DNA from: a bacterium endosymbiont of Escarpia laminata | GTDB lineage: Bacteria > Pseudomonadota > Gammaproteobacteria > Chromatiales > Chromatiaceae | Length of the DNA: 42,299 nt | Assembly (NCBI GenBank): GCA_003660235.1 | Contig: QGON01000044.1 | Span: 1 to 42,299, forward strand | Direction of reading: 5' to 3' | Made by a program: the position numbers and the translations under genes | The notes under the pieces: model-generated | Database searches by the model: none | The model's input: the letters and a program-made list of their open reading frames with translations, nothing else | Told to the model about the DNA's origin: nothing | Shown here: one piece after another, positions 2,356-13,825 of the stretch | How the letters are laid out: every line of letters begins with the position of its first letter | Numbering within the stretch: position 1 is the stretch's first letter

Positions 2356-2628
2356 ATGGAAGAGATTGCTGAGGAGATGATGGATGAGTTCCTGGCCAAA
2401 CTCATTAAAGAGAATCCGGAACTCAAAAGCATAATCAAAAAAGCTGATGTCATGTTGGTATCCGGTCTGACAGTCACCAAGATTCTTCAGGTGGTCGAAA
2501 AGCTTCAACCTCAACTGCTGGTCATGGGAAACAAAGGCCGCAGTGGGCTCAAAAACATTCTCATGGGATCAAAGGCCGAACAGGTCATAAAACTCTGTCC
2601 TATTCCGGTCACCATCGTCAAAGAATGA
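2356..2628 (+). pseudogene. Universal stress protein (UspA) C-terminal remnant
   Basis: Ninety residues match the second half of a UspA-fold protein. The nucleotide-binding pattern is visible as LLVMGNKGRSGLKNILMGSKAE followed by the final strand IPVTIV. Typical members have about 140-150 residues, and the first strand and its loop (about 55-60 residues) are absent. The frame is open back to the ppk stop and reads EKKIL just before RRMEE. That resembles a usual Usp N-terminus joined directly to the middle, which hints at an internal deletion (inference). An AGGAG lies about 20 bases before the ATG at 2356, too far to serve it well. The 3' end overlaps the next gene by four bases (ATGA), so translational coupling survives. 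Confidence 0.6.
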
Positions 2629-4433
2629 AATTTACCAGACCCCTTTCTGGTTGGCTGATTGAACCAAAAGGCATCCAGCAACTTGGGATGGGACTGCTGC
2701 TCTTTACCCTCTTTATACCGGCTTTTGCCGCCAATGATCTCCTCTCCGAACCGAACTGGTGGGACATGTCCGTTCGGCTGCTGGGCGGGCTTGCACTCTT
2801 TCTGTTTGGCATGGAACAGATGGCCGGGTCACTGAAACTGGTTGCCGGCGAACGTATGAAGGTCGTACTCGCCCGGCTGACCACCAATCGATTCATGGGT
2901 GCTCTGACAGGCGCCTTCGTTACCGCAATAATCCAATCATCCTCGGTAACAACCGTACTGGTGGTGGGCTTTATCTCGGCCGGACTGATGTCGATGGCCC
3001 AGTCGATCGGGGTTATCATGGGCGCCAATATCGGCACTACGATCACCGCCCAGATCGTCGCCTTCAAGGTTACCAAATACGCACTGTTGATGGTTGCCGT
3101 TGGTTTTGGCACGTGGTTCTTCTCCAAACAGGACAAGATCCGCCACTACGGCAATATGCTGTTGGGGTTGGGTCTGATCTTTTTCGGCATGAGCCTGATG
3201 AGCGACGCCATGTTCCCCCTGCGCAGTTATCAGCCTTTTCTCGATCTTATGGCAACGATGGCAAACCCGCTGATTGGCATTCTGATTGCAGCCGCCTTCA
3301 CTGCACTGATCCAGTCTTCCTCAGCCACAACGGGTATCGTCATCGTGATGGCAAGTCAAGGTTTCATCACCCTGCCTGCCGGCATTGCACTGGCCTTTGG
3401 TGCCAACATCGGTACCTGTGTCACAGCCATGCTTGCATCCATCGGCAAGAAACGCGAGGCAATACGCGCAGCACTGGTACATGTCATCTTCAATATTGCG
3501 GGCGTCCTGCTCTGGGTTGCATTCATCGACTATCTGGCCGACCTGGTTCTGCTTATCTCCCCCACTTCCAGCGAACTGACAGGCACGGCAAAACTGGCTG
3601 CTGATACACCCCGCCAAATCGCAAACGCCCACACCATCTTTAATATTGCCAACACGCTTATCTTTATCGGTTTCATCGGCGCGTTTGGCCGCCTTGTGGA
3701 GAGACTCGTACCAGACAGACCTTTGGAAGAGGAGCAGATCACACGCCCCCGTTTTCTCGATGAGGAACTACTGGAAACACCAACGCTGGCGCTGGACATG
3801 GCCAGGCTGGAGATCGACCGTGCAGGGCAGCAGGTCAGGAAAATGCTGAATCAGATCATGCCGGCCCTGCTTGGCGGAGATCGCAAACTGCTCGCAGAGA
3901 TAGGCGAAATGGACGACAAGGTCGACGTGCTGCACGAACAAATAGTAAGTTATCTGGGAAAATTAAGCGGAGAAAGACTCAACCAAAAGCAGACAGAAAC
4001 CGTCTTGAACCTGATGTCCACCATCAACAATCTGGAAAATCTCGCTGACCTCATAGAAACTGATTTAGTGGGCTTGGGCTACAAACGTCTCGAGGAAAAT
4101 CTACAGATAAGTCCGCAAACCCAACGCATGCTGAATCATCTTCACACACAAGTTTCTCAAGCTGTTGAACTCGCGCTGCAAGCCGTTAAACTACAGGACA
4201 CGAATCGTGCCGACCAAGTCACCGGCATGAAGACAACTGTTCAGCAATTGTTTGATGCGGCGACCAATCATCAAGCCACCCGACTGGTGGCAGATGAACC
4301 CAACCGCCTACAAGCCTATACCCTTGAGGTCGAGATCATCGAGAAACTCAGGCGCATCTACTATTTCGCCAAGCGAATAGCAAAACTTGTCGAGGCGAGC
4401 GCCGCCGATCCATTGATCGTCGAGACTGAGTGA
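2625..4433 (+). CDS. Na+/phosphate cotransporter family protein with PhoU-like C-terminus
   Basis: This inner-membrane protein of 602 residues belongs to the Na/Pi cotransporter (NptA/YjbB) family. Two inverted transport repeats are seen, each with the signature glutamine-serine motif: QSSSVTT near residue 105 and QSSSATT near residue 230. GANIGT motifs follow each one. A hydrophobic N-terminal segment and about eight further membrane segments precede a helical C-terminal region (about 385-595) that resembles a PhoU domain. In E. coli YjbB such proteins export phosphate. The gene overlaps the Usp remnant by four bases and sits between a polyphosphate kinase and the pst operon, so a role in phosphate balance fits. 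A perfect hairpin follows the stop. Confidence 0.88.
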   Translation: MKFTRPLSGWLIEPKGIQQLGMGLLLFTLFIPAFAANDLLSEPNWWDMSVRLLGGLALFLFGMEQMAGSLKLVAGERMKVVLARLTTNRFMGALTGAFVTAIIQSSSVTTVLVVGFISAGLMSMAQSIGVIMGANIGTTITAQIVAFKVTKYALLMVAVGFGTWFFSKQDKIRHYGNMLLGLGLIFFGMSLMSDAMFPLRSYQPFLDLMATMANPLIGILIAAAFTALIQSSSATTGIVIVMASQGFITLPAGIALAFGANIGTCVTAMLASIGKKREAIRAALVHVIFNIAGVLLWVAFIDYLADLVLLISPTSSELTGTAKLAADTPRQIANAHTIFNIANTLIFIGFIGAFGRLVERLVPDRPLEEEQITRPRFLDEELLETPTLALDMARLEIDRAGQQVRKMLNQIMPALLGGDRKLLAEIGEMDDKVDVLHEQIVSYLGKLSGERLNQKQTETVLNLMSTINNLENLADLIETDLVGLGYKRLEENLQISPQTQRMLNHLHTQVSQAVELALQAVKLQDTNRADQVTGMKTTVQQLFDAATNHQATRLVADEPNRLQAYTLEVEIIEKLRRIYYFAKRIAKLVEASAADPLIVETE

Positions 4434-5957: not shown

Positions 5958-6072
5958 AATTATTTCATATAGTGTCCGGGCATTAAGGAACCTCTGAACG
6001 AATAAGGGATGGCAGTCTTGTGGCCCGGATTCATTTGGAAGTTTCCCAAATATCGATACCAGAGGATTGATG

Positions 6073-6951
6073 ATGAAAAAGAGAAACCTGTTCACCCTGG
6101 CATTTGCCGCCACCTCTCTGCTGGCGAGTCTGCCCGCTGCAGCTGACCGGACTGTGATTCAAAACAAGGGTTCAGATACCCTGGTCAACGTGGCTCAGGC
6201 CTGGGCCGAACACTACCGCGAGGTCAAACCCAATGTGGCACTCGCAGTCTCCGGCGGTGGTTCCGGAACCGGCATCGCTGCCATGATCAATGGCACCGTG
6301 GATATCGCCAACGCCAGCCGCAAGATGAAATCCAAGGAAAAGGAAGCGGCCAAGAAAAAGGGCCAGAATCCGGTGGAGCACGTGGTGGGCTACGACGCCC
6401 TGGCCGTCTATATCCATCACGACAATCCTGCCAAATTATTCACCTTCGAGCAGTTGAAGGACGTTTATGTCCGTGGTGGCAAGGCGACTAAATGGTCAGA
6501 CCTCGGCCTGAAAGTCCCCGGTTGCGAGAGCGACAAGATCGTAGTGATCAGCCGCCAGAACAACTCCGGCACCTACGTCTATTTCAAGAAGGCGGTTCTG
6601 GGTAAGAAGGGTAAGTTCCGTCAGGGCACCCTGGATATGCACGGTTCCAAGGATGTGGTGGATCTGGTCGAAAAGACCCCCTGTGCCATCGGCTACAGCG
6701 GTCTGGCTTACGCCACCGATCACGTGAAGATGGCCTGCATCTCCAAGAAAGCCGGCGATGACTGTGTCAACCCCAGCGTCGCAACTGCCAGCGACCGCAG
6801 TTACCCGATTGCGCGTCCTCTGTTCATGTACACCAACGGCGAGCCCACAGGTGAAATCGGAACCTATCTTGACTGGGTCAAGAGCGATAAAGGCCAGTGC
6901 ATTCTCCTGAAGAAGGGTTATGCACCAATTCACAACGTAAGCTGCAACTAA
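6073..6951 (+). CDS. pstS: Phosphate-binding periplasmic protein PstS
   Basis: PstS captures phosphate in the periplasm and delivers it to PstCA. The signal peptide (MKKRNLFTLAF..., cleavage after PAAA near residue 24) is followed by phosphate-contacting segments: NKGSDTLV, SGGGSGTGIAAMINGTVDIANASR and SRQNNSGTYVYF. The length of 292 residues is normal. I chose the ATG at 6073 because AGAGGA lies six bases upstream; the ATG at 6070 or TTG at 6067 would add one or two residues. Two Cys pairs late in the protein (CESD, ACISKK, DDCVN, QCILL/VSCN) suggest disulfides. The gene is first in the cluster, behind a Pho box, and followed by a strong hairpin. Confidence 0.95.
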   Translation: MKKRNLFTLAFAATSLLASLPAAADRTVIQNKGSDTLVNVAQAWAEHYREVKPNVALAVSGGGSGTGIAAMINGTVDIANASRKMKSKEKEAAKKKGQNPVEHVVGYDALAVYIHHDNPAKLFTFEQLKDVYVRGGKATKWSDLGLKVPGCESDKIVVISRQNNSGTYVYFKKAVLGKKGKFRQGTLDMHGSKDVVDLVEKTPCAIGYSGLAYATDHVKMACISKKAGDDCVNPSVATASDRSYPIARPLFMYTNGEPTGEIGTYLDWVKSDKGQCILLKKGYAPIHNVSCN

Positions 6952-7159: not shown

Positions 7160-8236
7160 ATGTCCCACCTTGAAGAACGTTTGGAAAATGACCTCAATAA
7201 AATCCGCAACCGCGTGGAGAAACAGGCAGAGTTGGTTGAGACGGCGGTAACCAATGCCGTACACGCCCTGCAGACCGGTAATAAGAAACTGGCCTACGCC
7301 ACCGTCCTGAACGATCTCCCGATCAACAGGACCATGCGCGAAATCGACAACATCTGTCATAAGTTCATTGCAATCCATCTCCCCAGCGGAAGCCATCTGC
7401 GCCTGCTCTCCTCGGTCATCCGGGTGAATGTGGAATTGGAGCGCGTCGGTGACTACGCAGTAACCATCGCTAGAGAGGCCGCCCAGTTGTCCAAGCCGCC
7501 TGAAGGCAACATGGCGAGGGAACTGGAACGGATGGCCAGCGAGACCCAACTGATGCTGCGCCAGTCCATCCGTGCCTTCAACGATCTCAACGCGGAGATG
7601 GGCAGAAGCACCAAGCTGTTGGCCGACCAGATGGAAAACAATCTGGACAGCGTCTATACCGAAATGATGGCTAACCAGGACCGTGGCAAGGTAAAGGATA
7701 TTCTGGCCGTTTTCGTGGTTTTCACCCAGTTGAAAAGGGTTGCGGACCAGGCCAAGAATCTGTGCGAGGATGCGATTTTCGCCAGCACCGGGGAACAGAA
7801 GGCGCCCAAGGTCTACAAGGTGCTGTTCATCGACGAGGACAACGGCTGCAAGAGTCAAATGGCAGAGGCCATCGCCCGCAGGAACTACCCCGAAAGTGGT
7901 GAATATCTGAGCGCTGGCCGCCAGGCCGCCGCCAGCCTGAATCCCAACCTGGTCTCCTTCCTGGAAAACCGGGGACAGAACCTGAGTAACGTACAGCCGT
8001 CCTCGCTGGCAGACCTGACAGAACGCACGATCTCAGACCAATACGTCATCGTCAGCCTGGAAGGCGAGGTGTCATCCTATCTGCCCGAGATCCCCTTCCA
8101 CTGCACCGCCCTTGAATGGGATATGGGTCCGGTGCCGGAGGCCGATGACGAACAGGGTTTCGAAAATCTTTACCGTGCGATCTCGCTGCAGGTCAAGGAT
8201 TTGATAGAACTGCTGCGCGGCGAAGGAGCCTCCTGA
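7160..8236 (+). CDS. phoU: PhoU fused to a degenerate low-molecular-weight phosphatase domain
   Basis: Residues 1-212 form a PhoU domain, which normally couples Pst activity to PhoR. The first helical bundle has ELERVGDYA, with the usual ExxxD metal motif. In the second the equivalent reads LKRVADQA, so the Glu is replaced by Lys. Residues 217-350 are a low-molecular-weight phosphotyrosine phosphatase/arsenate reductase fold: VLFIDEDNGCKSQMAEAI matches VLFxCxxNxxRSQMAEA. The nucleophilic Cys is Asp225 and the P-loop Arg is Lys231, so catalysis by the usual mechanism is not possible. A phosphate-sensing role for the domain is inference. The gene is placed between pstS and pstC rather than at the operon end, and its stop is one base before pstC's ATG. 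GCGGAG precedes the ATG. Confidence 0.9.
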   Translation: MSHLEERLENDLNKIRNRVEKQAELVETAVTNAVHALQTGNKKLAYATVLNDLPINRTMREIDNICHKFIAIHLPSGSHLRLLSSVIRVNVELERVGDYAVTIAREAAQLSKPPEGNMARELERMASETQLMLRQSIRAFNDLNAEMGRSTKLLADQMENNLDSVYTEMMANQDRGKVKDILAVFVVFTQLKRVADQAKNLCEDAIFASTGEQKAPKVYKVLFIDEDNGCKSQMAEAIARRNYPESGEYLSAGRQAAASLNPNLVSFLENRGQNLSNVQPSSLADLTERTISDQYVIVSLEGEVSSYLPEIPFHCTALEWDMGPVPEADDEQGFENLYRAISLQVKDLIELLRGEGAS

Positions 8237-8237
8237 G

Positions 8238-9170
8238 ATGTCCGCAGTCAACCCACTACAACAAACAACAGCAGCGGACTTTGACCGCCGTAATCTCGAC
8301 TGGTATCTGGACAAACTGGTCCAGGTAGTGGTCTTTATCGCCGGCATCTCCGCCATCATCTTCGTCCTCGGGATCTTCTCCTTCATCACCGTGGAAGGCT
8401 TCGGCTTTCTGCTGGAGGATTTCAGCTTCAGCGAGTTTTTCTTCTCAGAGTTCTGGGATCCCAGCGATGAGGACGCCCCTGAGTACGGTATCCTGGCGCT
8501 GGCTGCGGGTACTGCCGCCGTTACCGGACTGGCGATGATCATCGCCATCCCGTTTTCACTCGGAGCGGCTATCTATATCGGTGAATTTTCCACCGGCAAG
8601 ACCCGTGAATACCTCAAGGTCCTGGTCGAGCTGCTGGCGGCCATCCCCTCCGTGGTCTGGGGTTTCATCGGACTCTCCATCATGAACCCGTTGATCATCG
8701 CGCTGTTCGATGTCCCGGTGGGACTCACCGTACTCAACGCCGGGATCATCCTGGGGCTGATGGCAGCGCCGATCATGACCTCCATCGCAGAGGATGCGCT
8801 CAAGGCGGTGCCCGATCGCTACCGGGAAGCAGCAGAAGCCCTGGGAGCCACCCGCTGGCAGGTGATCTTCAAGACCGTCCTGCCGGCGGCCAAAAATGGC
8901 CTGTTGGGTGCGGTGCTGCTCGGCGTGGGCCGGGGCTTCGGCGAGACCATGGCGGTACTCATGGCCACTGGCCACGCAGTGAATATTCCGGGCAGTCTGT
9001 TCGACTCGGTACGCGCCCTGACCGCCACCATCGCTGCCGAACTCGGAGAAACCGCTGTGGGGTCGCCTCACTACAAGGTGCTGTTCACCCTCGGTATCTT
9101 CCTGTTCGTCGTCACCTTCCTGATCAACCTGACCGCAGACCTGATCGTCCGCGGCGTACGCAAAGGGTAA
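8238..9170 (+). CDS. pstC: Phosphate ABC transporter permease PstC
   Basis: This inner-membrane subunit of 310 residues forms, with PstA, the phosphate channel. There are about six membrane segments. The cytoplasmic coupling (EAA) loop reads EAAEALGATRWQVIFKTVLPAA near residues 197-218, and LLAAIPSVVWGFIGL near 132 is typical of PstC. An unusually acidic, Phe-rich periplasmic stretch (FLLEDFSFSEFFFSEFWDPSDEDAPE, residues ~57-82, given here in outline) precedes the permease core. AAGGAG at 8223-8228 serves the ATG. The gene starts one base after the phoU stop. Confidence 0.95.
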   Translation: MSAVNPLQQTTAADFDRRNLDWYLDKLVQVVVFIAGISAIIFVLGIFSFITVEGFGFLLEDFSFSEFFFSEFWDPSDEDAPEYGILALAAGTAAVTGLAMIIAIPFSLGAAIYIGEFSTGKTREYLKVLVELLAAIPSVVWGFIGLSIMNPLIIALFDVPVGLTVLNAGIILGLMAAPIMTSIAEDALKAVPDRYREAAEALGATRWQVIFKTVLPAAKNGLLGAVLLGVGRGFGETMAVLMATGHAVNIPGSLFDSVRALTATIAAELGETAVGSPHYKVLFTLGIFLFVVTFLINLTADLIVRGVRKG

Positions 9171-9176
9171 ATCAAG

Positions 9177-10046
9177 ATGTTTGCAGAATCCGCACTCAAC
9201 AAAAGAAACAAGAAGGTCCAGGGCCTGTACAGAACCCTGTTCATGCTGATGACCATCATCCTGATCGTACCGGTGGCCATCATCCTAGCCACCCTGGTCT
9301 ACAAAGGTGGTGGCATTATCTCCATCGACTTCCTGTTCACGGATCCCACCAACGGCATGACCGAGGGCGGTATCTTTCCGGCCCTGCTGGGCACCATCTG
9401 GATCGTCGCCGTCGCGCTGATTGCCTCCGTACCCCTGGGGGTCGCGGCGGCTATCTATCTGAACGAATATGCCCCGGATAATGCCACTACCCGTATAATC
9501 CAGCTCGCCATCATCAATCTGGCAGGCGTGCCCTCTATCGTGCATGCCCTGTTCGGAGTGGGGGCCTTCGTGATCTTCTTCGGCTTTGGCACCAGCATCC
9601 TGGCCGCCAGCCTGACCCTGGCCGTGATGACCCTGCCGGTGGTGATCGTCTCCACCCGTGAGTCCCTGCGGGCGGTCCCCCATGCCTTTCGGGAGGCCTG
9701 CTGGAACATGGGCGCCACCCGCTGGCAGACCATCCGCCGGGTGGTGCTGCCCAACGCCATAAGCGGCGTCCTCACCGGCATCATCCTTGAGGTCTCGCGC
9801 ACCGCGGGGGAGACGGCGCCGATCATGTTCACCGGGGCCGTGTTCTTCATGCCGTTCCTGCCCCAGAGCGTCTTCGATCAGACCATGGCCCTGTCCCTGC
9901 ACCTGTTCGTGGTCGCCACCCAGGTCCCCGGTGTTCCGGACGAACTGCCCTACGGTGTGGCCCTGGTACTCATCGCCTTGGTGCTGATCATGAACAGTAT
10001 CTCCATCGCCTTCCGCATGCATCTGAGAGGCAAAAAGAAATGGTAA
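9177..10046 (+). CDS. pstA: Phosphate ABC transporter permease PstA
   Basis: The second channel subunit has 289 residues and six predicted membrane segments. Characteristic pieces are ALLGTIWIVAVALIASVPLG, YLNEYAP, INLAGVPSIVHALFG and the coupling loop REACWNMGATRWQTIRRVVLP near residues 172-192. It follows pstC by six bases and overlaps pstB1 by seven, so the two permeases and the first ATPase are translationally coupled. The length and motifs are normal for the family, so the unusual features of this transporter lie in its ATPases and PhoU. Confidence 0.95.
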   Translation: MFAESALNKRNKKVQGLYRTLFMLMTIILIVPVAIILATLVYKGGGIISIDFLFTDPTNGMTEGGIFPALLGTIWIVAVALIASVPLGVAAAIYLNEYAPDNATTRIIQLAIINLAGVPSIVHALFGVGAFVIFFGFGTSILAASLTLAVMTLPVVIVSTRESLRAVPHAFREACWNMGATRWQTIRRVVLPNAISGVLTGIILEVSRTAGETAPIMFTGAVFFMPFLPQSVFDQTMALSLHLFVVATQVPGVPDELPYGVALVLIALVLIMNSISIAFRMHLRGKKKW

Positions 10047-10855
10047 GTGCAACCCAAACCCTGGACGAATCCACCACGGCGGTGGAAAACCCGGCCAAAG
10101 CCCCGGCCAAGATGGCGGTTCGGGATCTCACCATCAGCTACGGCGGTGTACCGGCTCTGAGCGATGTCTCGCTGGAGATACGGGAACACGAGATCTTCGG
10201 CATCATCGGCCCCGCCAATGCAGGCAAGACCTCGTTTCTGAAGGTCCTGAACCGCATGAACACCTTCGACTCGAATATGGGAGTCAAAGGCGATGTCCTG
10301 TTCAACGGGCTGGATACCAGCAAGCTGAAAAACGTCTATGCCCTGCGCAGCCGCATCGGCGTGGTCTTTCCGTTGCCCGTGGGACTGCCCATGACCATCT
10401 ACGAAAACGTGGCCCTCTCGCCCCGCCTGCGCGGTATCAACAACAAGGCGGAGCTGGATGTGATCGTGGAACGCTGCCTGACCCGTGCCGCGCTCTGGGA
10501 CGAGGTCAAGGACCGCCTTGGCTCACTTGGCAGCCTGCTCTCCGGTGGCCAGCAGCAGCGTCTGACCATCTCCCGCGCCCTCTCCCAGGAGCCGGAAGTG
10601 TTGATGCTGGACGAGTTCTCCATCGCCGTGGACCCGGTCACTACCATGCGCATCGAGGATGTATTGAAAGAGCTGAAGTCAGAGATGACCATCATCCTGG
10701 TGACCAACCTGGTACAGCAGGCCCGGCGCCTGGCCGACCGCACCGCCTTTTTCCTGGAGGGCCAGTGCGTAGAGATCGGTGATACCGAGGATCTGTTCAC
10801 CGGAAAGGTGAAGAACCAGAGGACCCAGGATTACATAGAAGGCAAGTTTGGCTAA
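10040..10855 (+). CDS. pstB: Phosphate ABC transporter ATPase PstB1, degenerate Q- and H-loops
   Basis: This is a PstB-type ATPase of 271 residues. Walker A is GPANAGKT (57-64), still a legal GxxxxGKT but lacking the usual SGCGKST. The Q-loop position is Pro111 (VFPLP instead of VFQKP). The signature LSGGQ (167-171) is intact. Walker B with the catalytic Glu is LMLDE (E192). The H-loop His is Asn223 (VTNL instead of VTHN). ATP binding is likely, but hydrolysis at its own nucleotide site should be poor. Its intact signature would complete the site of a partner subunit, and PstB2 is the obvious candidate. An N-terminal extension of about 22 residues is rich in Pro, Ala and Thr. The gene overlaps pstA by seven bases. 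Confidence 0.92.
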   Translation: MVSATQTLDESTTAVENPAKAPAKMAVRDLTISYGGVPALSDVSLEIREHEIFGIIGPANAGKTSFLKVLNRMNTFDSNMGVKGDVLFNGLDTSKLKNVYALRSRIGVVFPLPVGLPMTIYENVALSPRLRGINNKAELDVIVERCLTRAALWDEVKDRLGSLGSLLSGGQQQRLTISRALSQEPEVLMLDEFSIAVDPVTTMRIEDVLKELKSEMTIILVTNLVQQARRLADRTAFFLEGQCVEIGDTEDLFTGKVKNQRTQDYIEGKFG

Positions 10856-10883
10856 ATACACCCTCCGGGTATAAGTTTCGTAA

Positions 10884-10900
10884 GAGCAGACGAGCTGCTC
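10884..10900. other. Hairpin between pstB1 and pstB2
   Basis: GAGCAG and CTGCTC form a 6-bp stem around ACGAG in the 111-bp gap between the two ATPase genes. There is no T-run. This gap is the longest one between pstC and phoR. It could hold a processing site or an extra promoter; I see no convincing second Pho box. Confidence 0.35.
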
Positions 10901-10966
10901 AACTCAGCTTTATCCAGACACGGCTTTGTTGGGCCCCTCATTCCAGATCAGTTTCGAGAACAAACT

Positions 10967-11770
10967 ATGAACACCGCCACCGCCGAAGTAATCAACGACT
11001 CATCCGCCGAATACGCCATCCATACTGAAAAACTCAATCTCTGGTATGGCACCTTTCAAGCGCTATTCGACATCAATCTCAATATCCGCAAGGGCATGAT
11101 CACTTCCATGATCGGCCCTTCCGGTTGCGGAAAATCCACCTTTCTGCGCAGCGTCAACCGGATCAACGAGCGCCTGGGTTATGTCCGCACCGAGGGCACG
11201 ATCGAAGTGATGGATCAGGACATCTATGACCCAGGGGTCGAACTGATCCAGGTGCGCAAGCAGATCGGCATGGTCTTCCAGCGCCCGAACCCACTGCCGA
11301 TCTCGATCCGGGAGAACATCCTGTTCGGGCACAAGATCCATAATAAAGATCAGAAATCCTCCAAAGCCGATCACGATGAAATCATCGAGGGCGCCCTGAA
11401 ACAAGTCCTGCTCTGGGACAAGGTGAAGGATCGCCTGGATAGCAAGGCCACGGGGCTCTCTCTGGAGGAGCAGCAAAAGCTCTGCATCGCCCGCCTGCTG
11501 CCGGTAAAACCCAGCGTCCTGCTGATGGATGAGCCCTGTTCCGCGCTCGACCCAAAAGGCACTGCCGCTGTGGAAGAGTTGATCTGGGAACTGCGCGGCG
11601 AATACACTATCCTCATGGTCACCCACAACATGGCCCAGGCACGGCGTGCGAGTGAAGAGTGCATCTTTATGTTGATGGGGAAAGTGGTCGAACATACGGC
11701 AACTGAAGATTTGTTCGTCACGCCAAGTCACAAAGAAACTGCAGACTATATTGAAGGTCGCTACGGCTGA
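10967..11770 (+). CDS. pstB: Phosphate ABC transporter ATPase PstB2, degenerate ABC signature
   Basis: This second PstB-type ATPase has 267 residues. Walker A is GPSGCGKS (50-57), the Q-loop is VFQRPNPLP (Q115), Walker B is VLLMDEPCSALDP (E189) and the H-loop is VTHN (H220); all are canonical. The signature is LSLEEQQKL (164-172) where PstB has LSGGQQQRL, so both glycines and the glutamine are lost. A PstB2 homodimer should not hydrolyse ATP efficiently. Paired with PstB1 it gets an intact LSGGQ in trans, giving one complete and one doubly degenerate site. It ends 14 bases before phoB. The C-terminal YIEGRYG is the usual PstB ending. Confidence 0.92.
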   Translation: MNTATAEVINDSSAEYAIHTEKLNLWYGTFQALFDINLNIRKGMITSMIGPSGCGKSTFLRSVNRINERLGYVRTEGTIEVMDQDIYDPGVELIQVRKQIGMVFQRPNPLPISIRENILFGHKIHNKDQKSSKADHDEIIEGALKQVLLWDKVKDRLDSKATGLSLEEQQKLCIARLLPVKPSVLLMDEPCSALDPKGTAAVEELIWELRGEYTILMVTHNMAQARRASEECIFMLMGKVVEHTATEDLFVTPSHKETADYIEGRYG

Positions 11771-11784
11771 TACGACAAAAAGCT

Positions 11785-12474
11785 ATGCCCAGAATATTGA
11801 TCGTAGAGGACGAAGCGGAAATTCGGGAGATGATTCGCTTCGGACTGGAAGTGGCGAATTTCGAGGTGGATGAGGCCGGACATGCCCAGGAGGCCAGGCG
11901 GTTGCTCGCCCATTCGCTGCCGGATCTGATATTGATGGACTGGATGTTGCCCGGACGTTCCGGTCTTGAACTGACACGGGAACTGAAACAGAAACCGGAA
12001 ACCCGCGACATCCCCCTCATCATTCTTACTGCCCGCGCCGATGAATCGGACAAGGTGGATGGACTCGAAGCCGGGGCGGACGACTACGTCACCAAGCCTT
12101 TCTCCCCCCGTGAACTGATCGCAAGGATCAAGGCGGTACTGCGCCGTTTCAACAAAGGCGGTGATGATAAACCACTGGAGAGCAATGGATTGCGGATCGA
12201 CCCGGCCAAACACCAGGTTACCGTGCAAAACAAACCTCTGGAACTCTCTCCCGCAGAGTATAAACTGCTGCTGTTCTTCATGTCCCATCAGGATCGAGCC
12301 TATAGCCGCTCCAGGATTCTTGATCATGTCTGGGACGACCATACCTACGTGGAGGAGCGAACCGTAGACGTCCATATCCGCCGCCTCAGAAAGGCGCTTT
12401 CCCCTTCAGGCCATGATGCCATGCTGCAGACCGTGCGGAGTGTGGGTTATCGATTCTCCTCGATGCCCGATTGA
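11785..12474 (+). CDS. phoB: Phosphate regulon response regulator PhoB
   Basis: This OmpR/PhoB-type regulator has 229 residues. The receiver domain (1-122) has the acidic pair in VEDE, the phosphoacceptor Asp52 in LMDWMLPG, and K105 in TKPF. The winged-helix DNA-binding domain (about 132-227) has LSPAEYKLLLFF, TVDVHIRRLRKAL and VRSVGYRF. It should bind the Pho box before pstS. It is 14 bases downstream of pstB2, so the transporter and its regulator are probably cotranscribed, which would give positive feedback. Confidence 0.95.
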   Translation: MPRILIVEDEAEIREMIRFGLEVANFEVDEAGHAQEARRLLAHSLPDLILMDWMLPGRSGLELTRELKQKPETRDIPLIILTARADESDKVDGLEAGADDYVTKPFSPRELIARIKAVLRRFNKGGDDKPLESNGLRIDPAKHQVTVQNKPLELSPAEYKLLLFFMSHQDRAYSRSRILDHVWDDHTYVEERTVDVHIRRLRKALSPSGHDAMLQTVRSVGYRFSSMPD

Positions 12475-12496
12475 CTCTACCTCCCCCGGTAAGCAC

Positions 12497-13825
12497 TTGA
12501 TTCAGCCCATCCTCTACGAAATCCGTCTGCTGGGGTTGTTGCTGCTTTTCAGCGGCATCATCGGCTACTTTTTCAGCGTACTGACACCTGCCCTAGTCGT
12601 TGGAGTCACCCTCTACCTGCTGAGAAATCTCTATCAATTGCTGTTTCTGTTCCACTATGTCGTCACTCGAAAGCGTACACCTTCTCTCACGCCGATAGGT
12701 TTTTGGGAGCCGATCTACAACGAACTGGAGCGGTTGCATACCCGCAGTCGGAAACGCAAACGCACGCTCCATCGCTTCACCTCACGCTTTCGAGAGGTCT
12801 CATCCGTCATACCGGACGCACTGGTTCTGCTGAATGCTGCTGAAGAGGTTGTCTGGGCCAATCCCGCAGCACGCCATCTTCTTGGTATCAGCTGGCCAAG
12901 AGATGAAGGAGTGGCACTGACAAAACTTGTCCACTACCCCGACCTGGACGAATACCTCGCAAACGCAGATTACAGCCAGCCGCTGGAGTTTCCCTCTCCC
13001 ACCAACAAGACGGTTGTGCTCTCGATGCGCTTCACACCTTTCGGTGGGAAAAAACGCCAGCGACTGATCGTGGCCCGGGATATCACCAAGGTGTTCCATC
13101 TCAATCTGATACGGCGGGATTTCGTTTCCAATGTCTCCCATGAATTGCGCACACCGTTGACGGTAATCACCGGCTTTCTTGAAAACCTCAGTGACCATGA
13201 ACTACTGCCGTTTCAGGAACGCCCTTTCGAGCTGATGAACCAACAGGCAACACGGATGAACATCATCATCAACGACCTGCTGACTCTCTCCAGACTCGAA
13301 ATGGAAAACAGAATTACTCATCCGTCTCCTGTTCCGGTCCCGGAGCTGTTAACAACGATTGTTGAACAGGCCAAAGCGCTTGCGAATCAGAAGGGGGGGT
13401 ATCAACTGGAGTTCGAAGTGGATGAGAATCTCTGGCTCGTGGGCACCGAAAACGAACTGCAGAGCGCCTTATCAAACCTCGTATTCAATGCCATCGTGCA
13501 TACTCCACCGAAAACAAAAATCACCATCAGCTGGAAACGGGATGCCGATAATAATGCCTGCTTTACCGTTACAGACACAGGCCCCGGTATTCCACAACGG
13601 CACATTCCACGCCTGACTGAACGTTTCTACCGGGTGGACAAAGCACGTTCCCGTCAGTCAGGGGGAACCGGTCTCGGGTTGGCCATCGTGAAACATAGTA
13701 TTATTCGACACGAAGGCAACCTTAGCATCACCAGTAAAGAGGGTTTCGGCAGCTGTTTCAGTTGCTGTTTTCCTGATGACATGACCCTGGATGGCGGTCA
13801 ATTCGATAACAAAGAAAGAAAATAG
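12497..13825 (+). CDS. phoR: Phosphate regulon sensor kinase PhoR
   Basis: This membrane histidine kinase of 443 residues has two N-terminal hydrophobic segments (about 8-45). A PAS domain (about 95-190; PDALVLLNAAEEVVWANPAA) is followed by HisKA with the phosphorylated His in SNVSHELRTPLTVI. The ATPase domain shows N-box NLVFNAIVHTP, DTGPGIP and GGTGLGLAIVKH. The start is a TTG at 12497 because LIQPILYEIRLLGLLLL matches the usual short PhoR N-terminus. Starting further upstream would overlap phoB in another frame. There is no periplasmic domain, in keeping with sensing through PhoU and Pst. Confidence 0.93.
   Translation: MIQPILYEIRLLGLLLLFSGIIGYFFSVLTPALVVGVTLYLLRNLYQLLFLFHYVVTRKRTPSLTPIGFWEPIYNELERLHTRSRKRKRTLHRFTSRFREVSSVIPDALVLLNAAEEVVWANPAARHLLGISWPRDEGVALTKLVHYPDLDEYLANADYSQPLEFPSPTNKTVVLSMRFTPFGGKKRQRLIVARDITKVFHLNLIRRDFVSNVSHELRTPLTVITGFLENLSDHELLPFQERPFELMNQQATRMNIIINDLLTLSRLEMENRITHPSPVPVPELLTTIVEQAKALANQKGGYQLEFEVDENLWLVGTENELQSALSNLVFNAIVHTPPKTKITISWKRDADNNACFTVTDTGPGIPQRHIPRLTERFYRVDKARSRQSGGTGLGLAIVKHSIIRHEGNLSITSKEGFGSCFSCCFPDDMTLDGGQFDNKERK

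Follow-up and report, generated by a model that had tools for sequence, protein, structure and literature searches.

The window, i.e. the complete stretch of 42,299 nucleotides analysed (contig QGON01000044.1 of assembly GCA_003660235.1, from a bacterial endosymbiont of Escarpia laminata), contains a phosphate transport (pst) operon with two adjacent genes, pstB1 and pstB2, encoding ATPase subunits whose motif losses are complementary. Both genes were identified as open reading frames (ORFs) with matches to the NCBIfam family TIGR00972 (PstB) and by their motifs, which were placed by motif alignment; all features listed here are on the + strand.

10040–10855, +: pstB1, ATPase subunit; Q-loop and H-loop degenerate, LSGGQ intact
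10208–10234, +: PstB1 Walker A, GPANAGKTS (G57–S65)
10370–10372, +: PstB1 Pro111 at the position of the Q-loop Gln, context FPLPVGLP
10538–10552, +: PstB1 signature LSGGQ (residues 167–171), intact, context LSGGQQQRL
10610–10615, +: PstB1 Walker B Asp191-Glu192, intact, context LDEFSIAVDP
10622–10633, +: PstB1 D-loop IAVD (canonical form SALD or ASLD)
10706–10708, +: PstB1 Asn223 at the position of the H-loop His, context VTNL
10967–11770, +: pstB2, ATPase subunit; catalytic motifs intact, signature degenerate
11114–11140, +: PstB2 Walker A, GPSGCGKST (residues 50–58), intact
11279–11281, +: PstB2 Gln105 of the Q-loop, intact, context FQRPNPLP
11456–11470, +: PstB2 signature LSLEE (residues 164–168) in place of LSGGQ, context LSLEEQQKL
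11528–11533, +: PstB2 Walker B Asp188-Glu189, intact, context MDEPCSALDP
11624–11626, +: PstB2 His220 of the H-loop, intact, context VTHN

The start of pstB1 overlaps the end of pstA by 7 bases, and no promoter-like or terminator-like match was found in the 111-base spacer between pstB1 and pstB2. The best NCBIfam family of both proteins is TIGR00972, with 280.6–280.8 bits for PstB1 and 323.9–324.2 bits for PstB2, and the curated cut-off of this family (343.2 bits) is reached by neither, as expected from the loss of motifs.

Complementary motifs and composite sites

Neither chain holds a complete set of Walker A, Q-loop, LSGGQ, Walker B and H-loop. A preliminary description of this DNA had reported Pro in the Q-loop and Asn in the H-loop of PstB1 together with an intact LSGGQ, and the reverse combination with LSLEE in PstB2, and the alignment confirmed each of these residues. 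The Walker A of PstB1, which had been called altered, deviates from GxxGxGK[ST] only at N60, while it still fits GxxxxGK[ST] and keeps the core of the motif.

In a dimer of ATP-binding cassette (ABC) proteins each site is shared between the subunits: one supplies the Walker, Q and H motifs and its partner the signature (PMC7756269; for this and all other papers cited the statements refer to the passages that were available). With this geometry the motifs of PstB1 and PstB2 give one site in which no catalytic or signature residue is missing and a second site lacking the Q-loop Gln, the H-loop His and the signature glycines. The description of the first site as fully consensus thus holds for its catalytic and signature residues but not for the D-loop of PstB1, where IAVD is non-canonical. 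The altered signature in PstB2 and the cis-motif losses in PstB1 are those of an ABC protein with one degenerate site, but the loss of the catalytic Walker B Glu, a common though not universal hallmark of such sites, is not seen, PstB1 having kept its Glu. Nor does the pair correspond to the tandem type of Enterococcus faecalis, in which both copies are canonical.

Conservation and selection

Membership of the PstB1 and PstB2 families was defined by a profile score above 335 bits (the lowest PstB1 scoring 346 and the lowest PstB2 339, fragments included), and the best protein outside both families reached 312 bits. Proteins below the line were compared separately as a canonical set of 90 distinct PstBs, counted after exclusion of 12 rows: five divergent PstB-like proteins (L108, L111, L117, L275 and L279) and seven proteins shorter than 226 residues, two of which correspond to the PstB1 piece of genome G001 and five to partial PstB2-like frames.

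The Q-loop position is occupied by Pro in all 136 distinct PstB1 sequences, which also all contain SGGQ and the Walker B Asp-Glu (136/136 each), and the H-loop position by Asn in the 135 of 135 that cover it. The Walker A Lys is present in 133 of the 134 sequences covering it, the remaining one having Arg, and the A-loop Tyr in 108 of 109. In PstB2 the signature G-G is replaced by L-E in 130 out of 130 distinct sequences, followed by E (97), Q (28) or A (5) as the last residue, and both the Q-loop Gln and the Walker B Asp-Glu are invariant (130/130), as is the H-loop His (129 of 129 covering it). The canonical PstBs have Gln, His and GG together in 90 of 90. Such a pattern is far beyond chance.

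A search of 55 related genomes revealed PstB1 in 10 further ones, all of the same taxonomic family as the window, at 77–95% identity, with identical diagnostic residues and with PstB2 adjacent. When contigs of named genomes were scanned with the PstB1 alignment at least 80 loci were obtained; the best 80, which were used, span Gammaproteobacteria (Candidatus Thiodiazotropha), Candidatus Accumulibacter, Dechloromonas, Planctomycetota, Gemmatimonadota, Acidobacteriota, Myxococcota, Poribacteria, Verrucomicrobiota and others. Within one locus PstB1 and PstB2 are 33–42% identical. On these comparisons the asymmetric PstB pair is best read as a variant of Pst that is widespread in several bacterial phyla.

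The ratio of non-synonymous to synonymous substitution (dN/dS) against four genomes of the genus was 0.09–0.11 for PstB1 and 0.06–0.07 for PstB2; against genome G012, where dS is high or saturated, it was 0.13 and 0.05. Since in all cases examined the complementary losses occur as a pair, without variation and under purifying selection, they argue for specialisation and not decay, as had been proposed from the window alone. An origin by sequencing error, pseudogene formation or decay has next to no probability left: the same residues recur in many assemblies (136 and 130 distinct sequences), which already refutes it and disposes of the earlier concern that the motif codons might be errors, and dN/dS within the genus is about 0.1 or lower. 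Nothing in its favour was found for the window, for whose copy decay is excluded, and only the broken gene of G001 (see below) shows that breakage, real or of assembly, can happen.

A quick tree of 94 rows (28 pairs, i.e. the window and 27 of 109 distinct pairs, together with 30 canonical, 5 divergent and 3 outgroup proteins) was calculated with the motif columns kept in and with support from the Shimodaira-Hasegawa-like approximate likelihood ratio test (SH-aLRT) only. PstB1 forms one clade (support 100). So does PstB2, at support 65, or 98 if one divergent protein from Magnetococcales is counted in. The PstB1 and PstB2 clades are not sister groups, but the tree has a weakly supported backbone and some long branches. 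The same seven rows, including Poribacteria, Myxococcota, Verrucomicrobiota and others, are found on one side of a deep split in both subfamilies (support 90 and 82). The distance matrices of PstB1 and PstB2 are correlated over 109 pairs (r 0.88, against at most 0.21 in 1000 permutations), which was rejected as proof of contact as any operon inherited as a unit is expected to show it.

Co-occurrence of the two genes

Separate profile searches with PstB1 and PstB2 in 843 genomes (369 of the window's class, 200 Gemmatimonadota, the phylum of the Longimicrobiales genome G400, and 274 Planctomycetota, the phylum of G401) found the two jointly in 61, distributed as 8, 31 and 22, and in none of the 843 was PstB1 present without PstB2 or the reverse. 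The question raised in the preliminary description, whether the losses co-occur, is hereby answered in the affirmative, the motifs being invariant as well. In the window's class the PstB2 profile (cut-off 1e-85) matched 90 of the 369 genomes, eight of them at 1e-158 or lower; the best of the others stood at 1e-94. The 22 loci fetched from the weaker matches (L135–L156) were all canonical in motif. The genes are neighbours in 60 of the 61 pair genomes; in the other, G712, they are on different contigs with PstB1 near a contig end. Among the best 80 named loci, 72 have at least 700 bases of room, and PstB2 follows PstB1 in 71 of these; in the last (L118) PstB2 is present but partly masked.

Genome G001, which belongs to the window's genus and is not one of the 843, has an intact PstB2 beside a broken PstB1. 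The pieces of its PstB1 are in different frames (L183, 4334–4882) and adjoin another ABC gene, and the start of pstC is 2.5 Mb away; the break is either a rearrangement or an assembly fault, the two being indistinguishable here.

A predicted heterodimer with one complete site

From the motifs and their conservation PstB1 and PstB2 are predicted, with a probability of roughly 80%, to form an obligate heterodimer that drives phosphate import and in which one ATPase site is complete and the other degenerate. The site combining Walker A and B and the Q- and H-loops of PstB2 with the LSGGQ of PstB1 would hydrolyse ATP and power import. The other, combining the Walker motifs of a PstB1 devoid of the Q-loop Gln and H-loop His with the LSLEE of PstB2, probably binds ATP with slow or no turnover and may act as a hinge or clamp; a hinge role with bound ATP has been proposed for the degenerate sites of exporters (PMC7756269). 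A homodimer of PstB1 would lack Gln and His twice and one of PstB2 would contain two LSLEE sites, and because either would thereby have two defective sites only the heterodimer should work. In E. coli PstB the signature change Q160K stops transport (PMC5775613). An obligate heterodimer would also fix which ATPase meets which permease, which fits the co-specialised coupling helix of PstA described below, and the likely cost would be about one ATP per transport cycle. A link from the degenerate site to PhoU and PhoR signalling is plausible, though a guess, and regulation through PhoU is possible.

Several observations weigh against this arrangement. With the catalytic Glu, the core Walker A and the A-loop Tyr all retained in PstB1, its site may still hydrolyse ATP. 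ABCC1 carrying an H-loop Asn in its consensus site showed wild-type-like transport (PMC7756269), so an exchange of His for Asn alone need not kill a site, and the altered D-loop of PstB1 bears on the very site that was called consensus. G001 combines an intact PstB2 with a broken PstB1. Co-inheritance and mirrored distances (r 0.88) would be found in any stable operon and are no evidence of contact. Defining the families by profile score could class divergent members with other residues elsewhere, though the scores leave a gap. Single-chain AlphaFold models built from 11-row alignments were too poor to draw a conclusion from, with a mean predicted local distance difference test score (pLDDT) of 49.6 for PstB1 and 41.2 for PstB2, and were set aside.

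The first two of these observations would also suit a heterodimer in which both sites hydrolyse ATP and the changes on the PstB1 side tune the rate but do not disable it, given that the PstB1-side site keeps Walker A, the A-loop and Asp191 and Glu192 (136/136) and that ABCC1 tolerates the H-loop Asn. We consider this unlikely, as the PstB1-side site is without the Gln, the His and the signature GG all together and as a Q-to-K change in the signature was enough to abolish transport by E. coli PstB. A role for PstB2 alone, as a homodimer driving transport with PstB1 as accessory or inhibitor, finds a parallel in E. faecalis, where pstB2 is required and pstB1 accessory (PMC12096839), and would suit G001; it is nevertheless very improbable, since the E. 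faecalis proteins are both canonical in their motifs (PMC12096839), two LSLEE sites would result here, and no PstB2 without PstB1 was seen in the 843 genomes.

Permeases, PhoU fusion and signalling genes

The ATPase genes of the proposed heterodimer are preceded and followed by the remaining genes of the system:

6067–6951, +: pstS, phosphate-binding protein (TIGR02136, 237.7 bits, cut-off 206.6)
7160–8236, +: phoU fused to a degenerate low molecular weight phosphatase (LMWP)/ArsC-like domain (family matches, alignment of fusions)
8238–9170, +: pstC, permease (TIGR02138, 276.6 bits, cut-off 196.45)
9177–10046, +: pstA, permease, with the pair-specific coupling helix ESLRAVPHAFREACWNMGATRWQT (family match above cut-off, helix comparison)
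11785–12474, +: phoB, response regulator (TIGR02154, above cut-off)
12413–13825, +: phoR, sensor kinase (TIGR02966, above cut-off)

The operon context expected of PstB is provided by PstS, PstC and PstA, each above its own curated cut-off; judged by these family matches the operon is a phosphate ABC importer, PstS-PstC-PstA with PstB ATPases, for which transport is predicted. Upstream of it the window contains a Na/phosphate symporter with C-terminal PhoU domains (2625–4433).

Comparison of the coupling helices of PstA gave ESLqaVPxaFREAcWnmGATRWQT for the pair loci (93 distinct segments) and ..l..vP.siReaal..Ga for canonical systems (70 segments). The corresponding helix of PstC reads DALKAVPDxYREAAEAxGATrW in the pair loci (81 segments), compared to a looser canonical pattern (22 segments). 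By these patterns both permeases of the pair loci are specialised alongside the ATPases.

The PhoU-LMWP fusion was detected upstream in 52 of the 66 named loci having both PstS and PstC upstream, and in the remaining 14 no fusion was found in the upstream stretch, which was the only part searched. A dependence of the pair on the fusion, which had been considered, is weakened by these 14 loci. Fusions from the window and from 56 ORFs of named loci were aligned (57 in all), and the positions of the catalytic Cys and Arg were taken to correspond to those of low molecular weight protein tyrosine phosphatases and ArsC. The Cys position is occupied by Asp in 50 proteins, by Gly in 4 and by Ala, Ser or Cys in a single protein each; Arg is present at its own position in 7, and L115 is the protein that keeps both Cys and Arg. 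With the Cys lost in 56 of the 57 the domain is a probable pseudophosphatase, perhaps an anion sensor, so that of the PhoU-phosphatase fusion noted earlier the fusion itself stands but its phosphatase part is degenerate.

The frequency of this fusion (52/66), together with phoBR and the PhoU-bearing symporter nearby in the window and with signalling by conformations of PstB in E. coli (PMC5775613), could be taken to mean that the asymmetric PstSCAB is a receptor and not a pump: its main task would be to signal phosphate to PhoU-LMWP and PhoR, and most of the uptake would fall to other carriers, for instance the upstream symporter. This is quite improbable in view of the one site that keeps every catalytic motif under purifying selection, of PstS, PstC and PstA scoring above their cut-offs and of the 14 loci keeping the pair with no fusion detected upstream. 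The heterodimer driving import could be extended to a one-site importer, ancient and widespread, in which the nucleotide resident in the degenerate site is read by the PhoU-pseudophosphatase, coupling uptake, energy charge and Pho signalling within a single complex; we put this forward tentatively and regard it as rather doubtful.

Comparison with known systems

Canonical PstSCAB shares PstS, PstC, PstA, PstB homologues, PhoU and PhoBR with the system described here, and the nearest solved relatives of PstB1, by sequence match only, are the PstB chains of 9k3s, 9k3x and 9k3y. One degenerate ATPase domain is also a feature of the CUT2 sugar importers RbsA, MglA and AraG, where however the two domains belong to one protein and the substrate family is another. 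Tandem PstBs with adjacent genes occur in other Gemmatimonadota as well, but there both copies are canonical (12 of the 30 Gemmatimonadota loci fetched: L189, L199, L201–L203, L205, L207–L210, L212 and L214). The same holds for E. faecalis, with two adjacent pstB genes of unequal roles and complete motif sets in both (PMC12096839), while the E. coli PstB has been described and modelled as a homodimer (PMC5775613), in contrast to the two dissimilar PstBs with complementary losses found here. Two different ATPase subunits on one importer are known from DppDF, but DppD and DppF are both functional in their motifs according to the authors' alignment (PMC12136057).

The exporters TM287/288, TAP, CFTR and Pdr5 likewise have one complete and one degenerate composite site, and in several of them the signature and H-loop changes are on opposite subunits as in PstB1 and PstB2 (PMC7756269). 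The likeness to CFTR and TM287/288 pointed out in the preliminary description is partial: it covers the combination of a complete with a degenerate site but not the loss of the catalytic Glu, which is common in degenerate sites. Differences from such exporters are that the present system is an importer with separate subunits, that the catalytic Glu is kept and that the Q-loop Gln is replaced by Pro. Pdr5 has the signature LNVEQ, resembling the LSLEQ and LQLEQ of the PstB2 family, and an H-loop Tyr, and has in addition lost the Walker A Lys and the catalytic Glu (PMC7756269).

Asymmetric ATP sites were, in the papers found, studied mainly in exporters, for which there is continuing debate about what the degenerate site does (PMC7756269). 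No description of this PstB pair was found in the literature searchable by title and start of the abstract, mostly without subscription journals. In Accumulibacter pstSABC is induced at low phosphate, with no mention of PstB in the passages available (PMC12604563). The pair offers an importer with separately encoded, swappable ATPases, among whose hosts is the polyphosphate accumulator Candidatus Accumulibacter, and allows questions to be asked about the ATP cost per phosphate, about the ability of a type I importer to work with a single site and about how the conformations of Pst reach PhoU and PhoR.

Other PstBs in pair-bearing genomes

A third, canonical PstB, which would have spoken against the pair serving this transporter, was not found in the window's genome (4.25 Mb, listed as 100% complete), where the next TIGR00972 match after the pair has only 147 bits. 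A PstB over the TIGR00972 cut-off besides the pair is present in 5 of the 18 class genomes analysed, which include G001, in 4 of 14 genomes from the named loci and in one (G477) of the 31 pair-bearing Gemmatimonadota genomes, in each of which the 12 best TIGR00972 candidates were scored. In 16 of these 31 exactly two candidates, presumed to be the pair, reached E≤1e-75, and in 14 a third one did, which in G400 is the atypical L275. Being over the cut-off was rejected as a synonym of canonical, as L276 is canonical in its motifs yet below the cut-off, and since a canonical PstB can score that low the absence of other PstBs is claimed only where there is no further match. Annotation by the PstB family cut-off alone can, in turn, miss a whole class of Pst systems.

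Extra TIGR00972 matches below the pair or the cut-off were inspected in eight fetched regions (L275–L282). L275, L276 and L279 are PstB-like, and L277, L278 and L280–L282 were dropped as their motifs look like those of amino-acid-type ABC ATPases. The third PstB-like protein of G400 (Gemmatimonadota; L275, 1978–3735, +) has an H-loop Tyr and the signature LSAGQ. Third PstB-like proteins are also found in Poribacteria (L108, 8049–8852; L111, 12869–13690; L117, 12360–13145; all +), with P or R in the Q-loop, N in the H-loop and an altered signature, and their genes follow a second PstA-like gene and are themselves followed by a PhoU. In a Magnetococcales genome the gene at L279 (2495–3334, −), whose neighbours are a small membrane protein and what by eye is a PhoU-like gene, encodes a PstB2-like protein with changes in the Q-loop, signature, Walker B and H-loop (FARS, LTDEE, DDPC and ATSN), which from these motifs looks like a signalling pseudo-ATPase.

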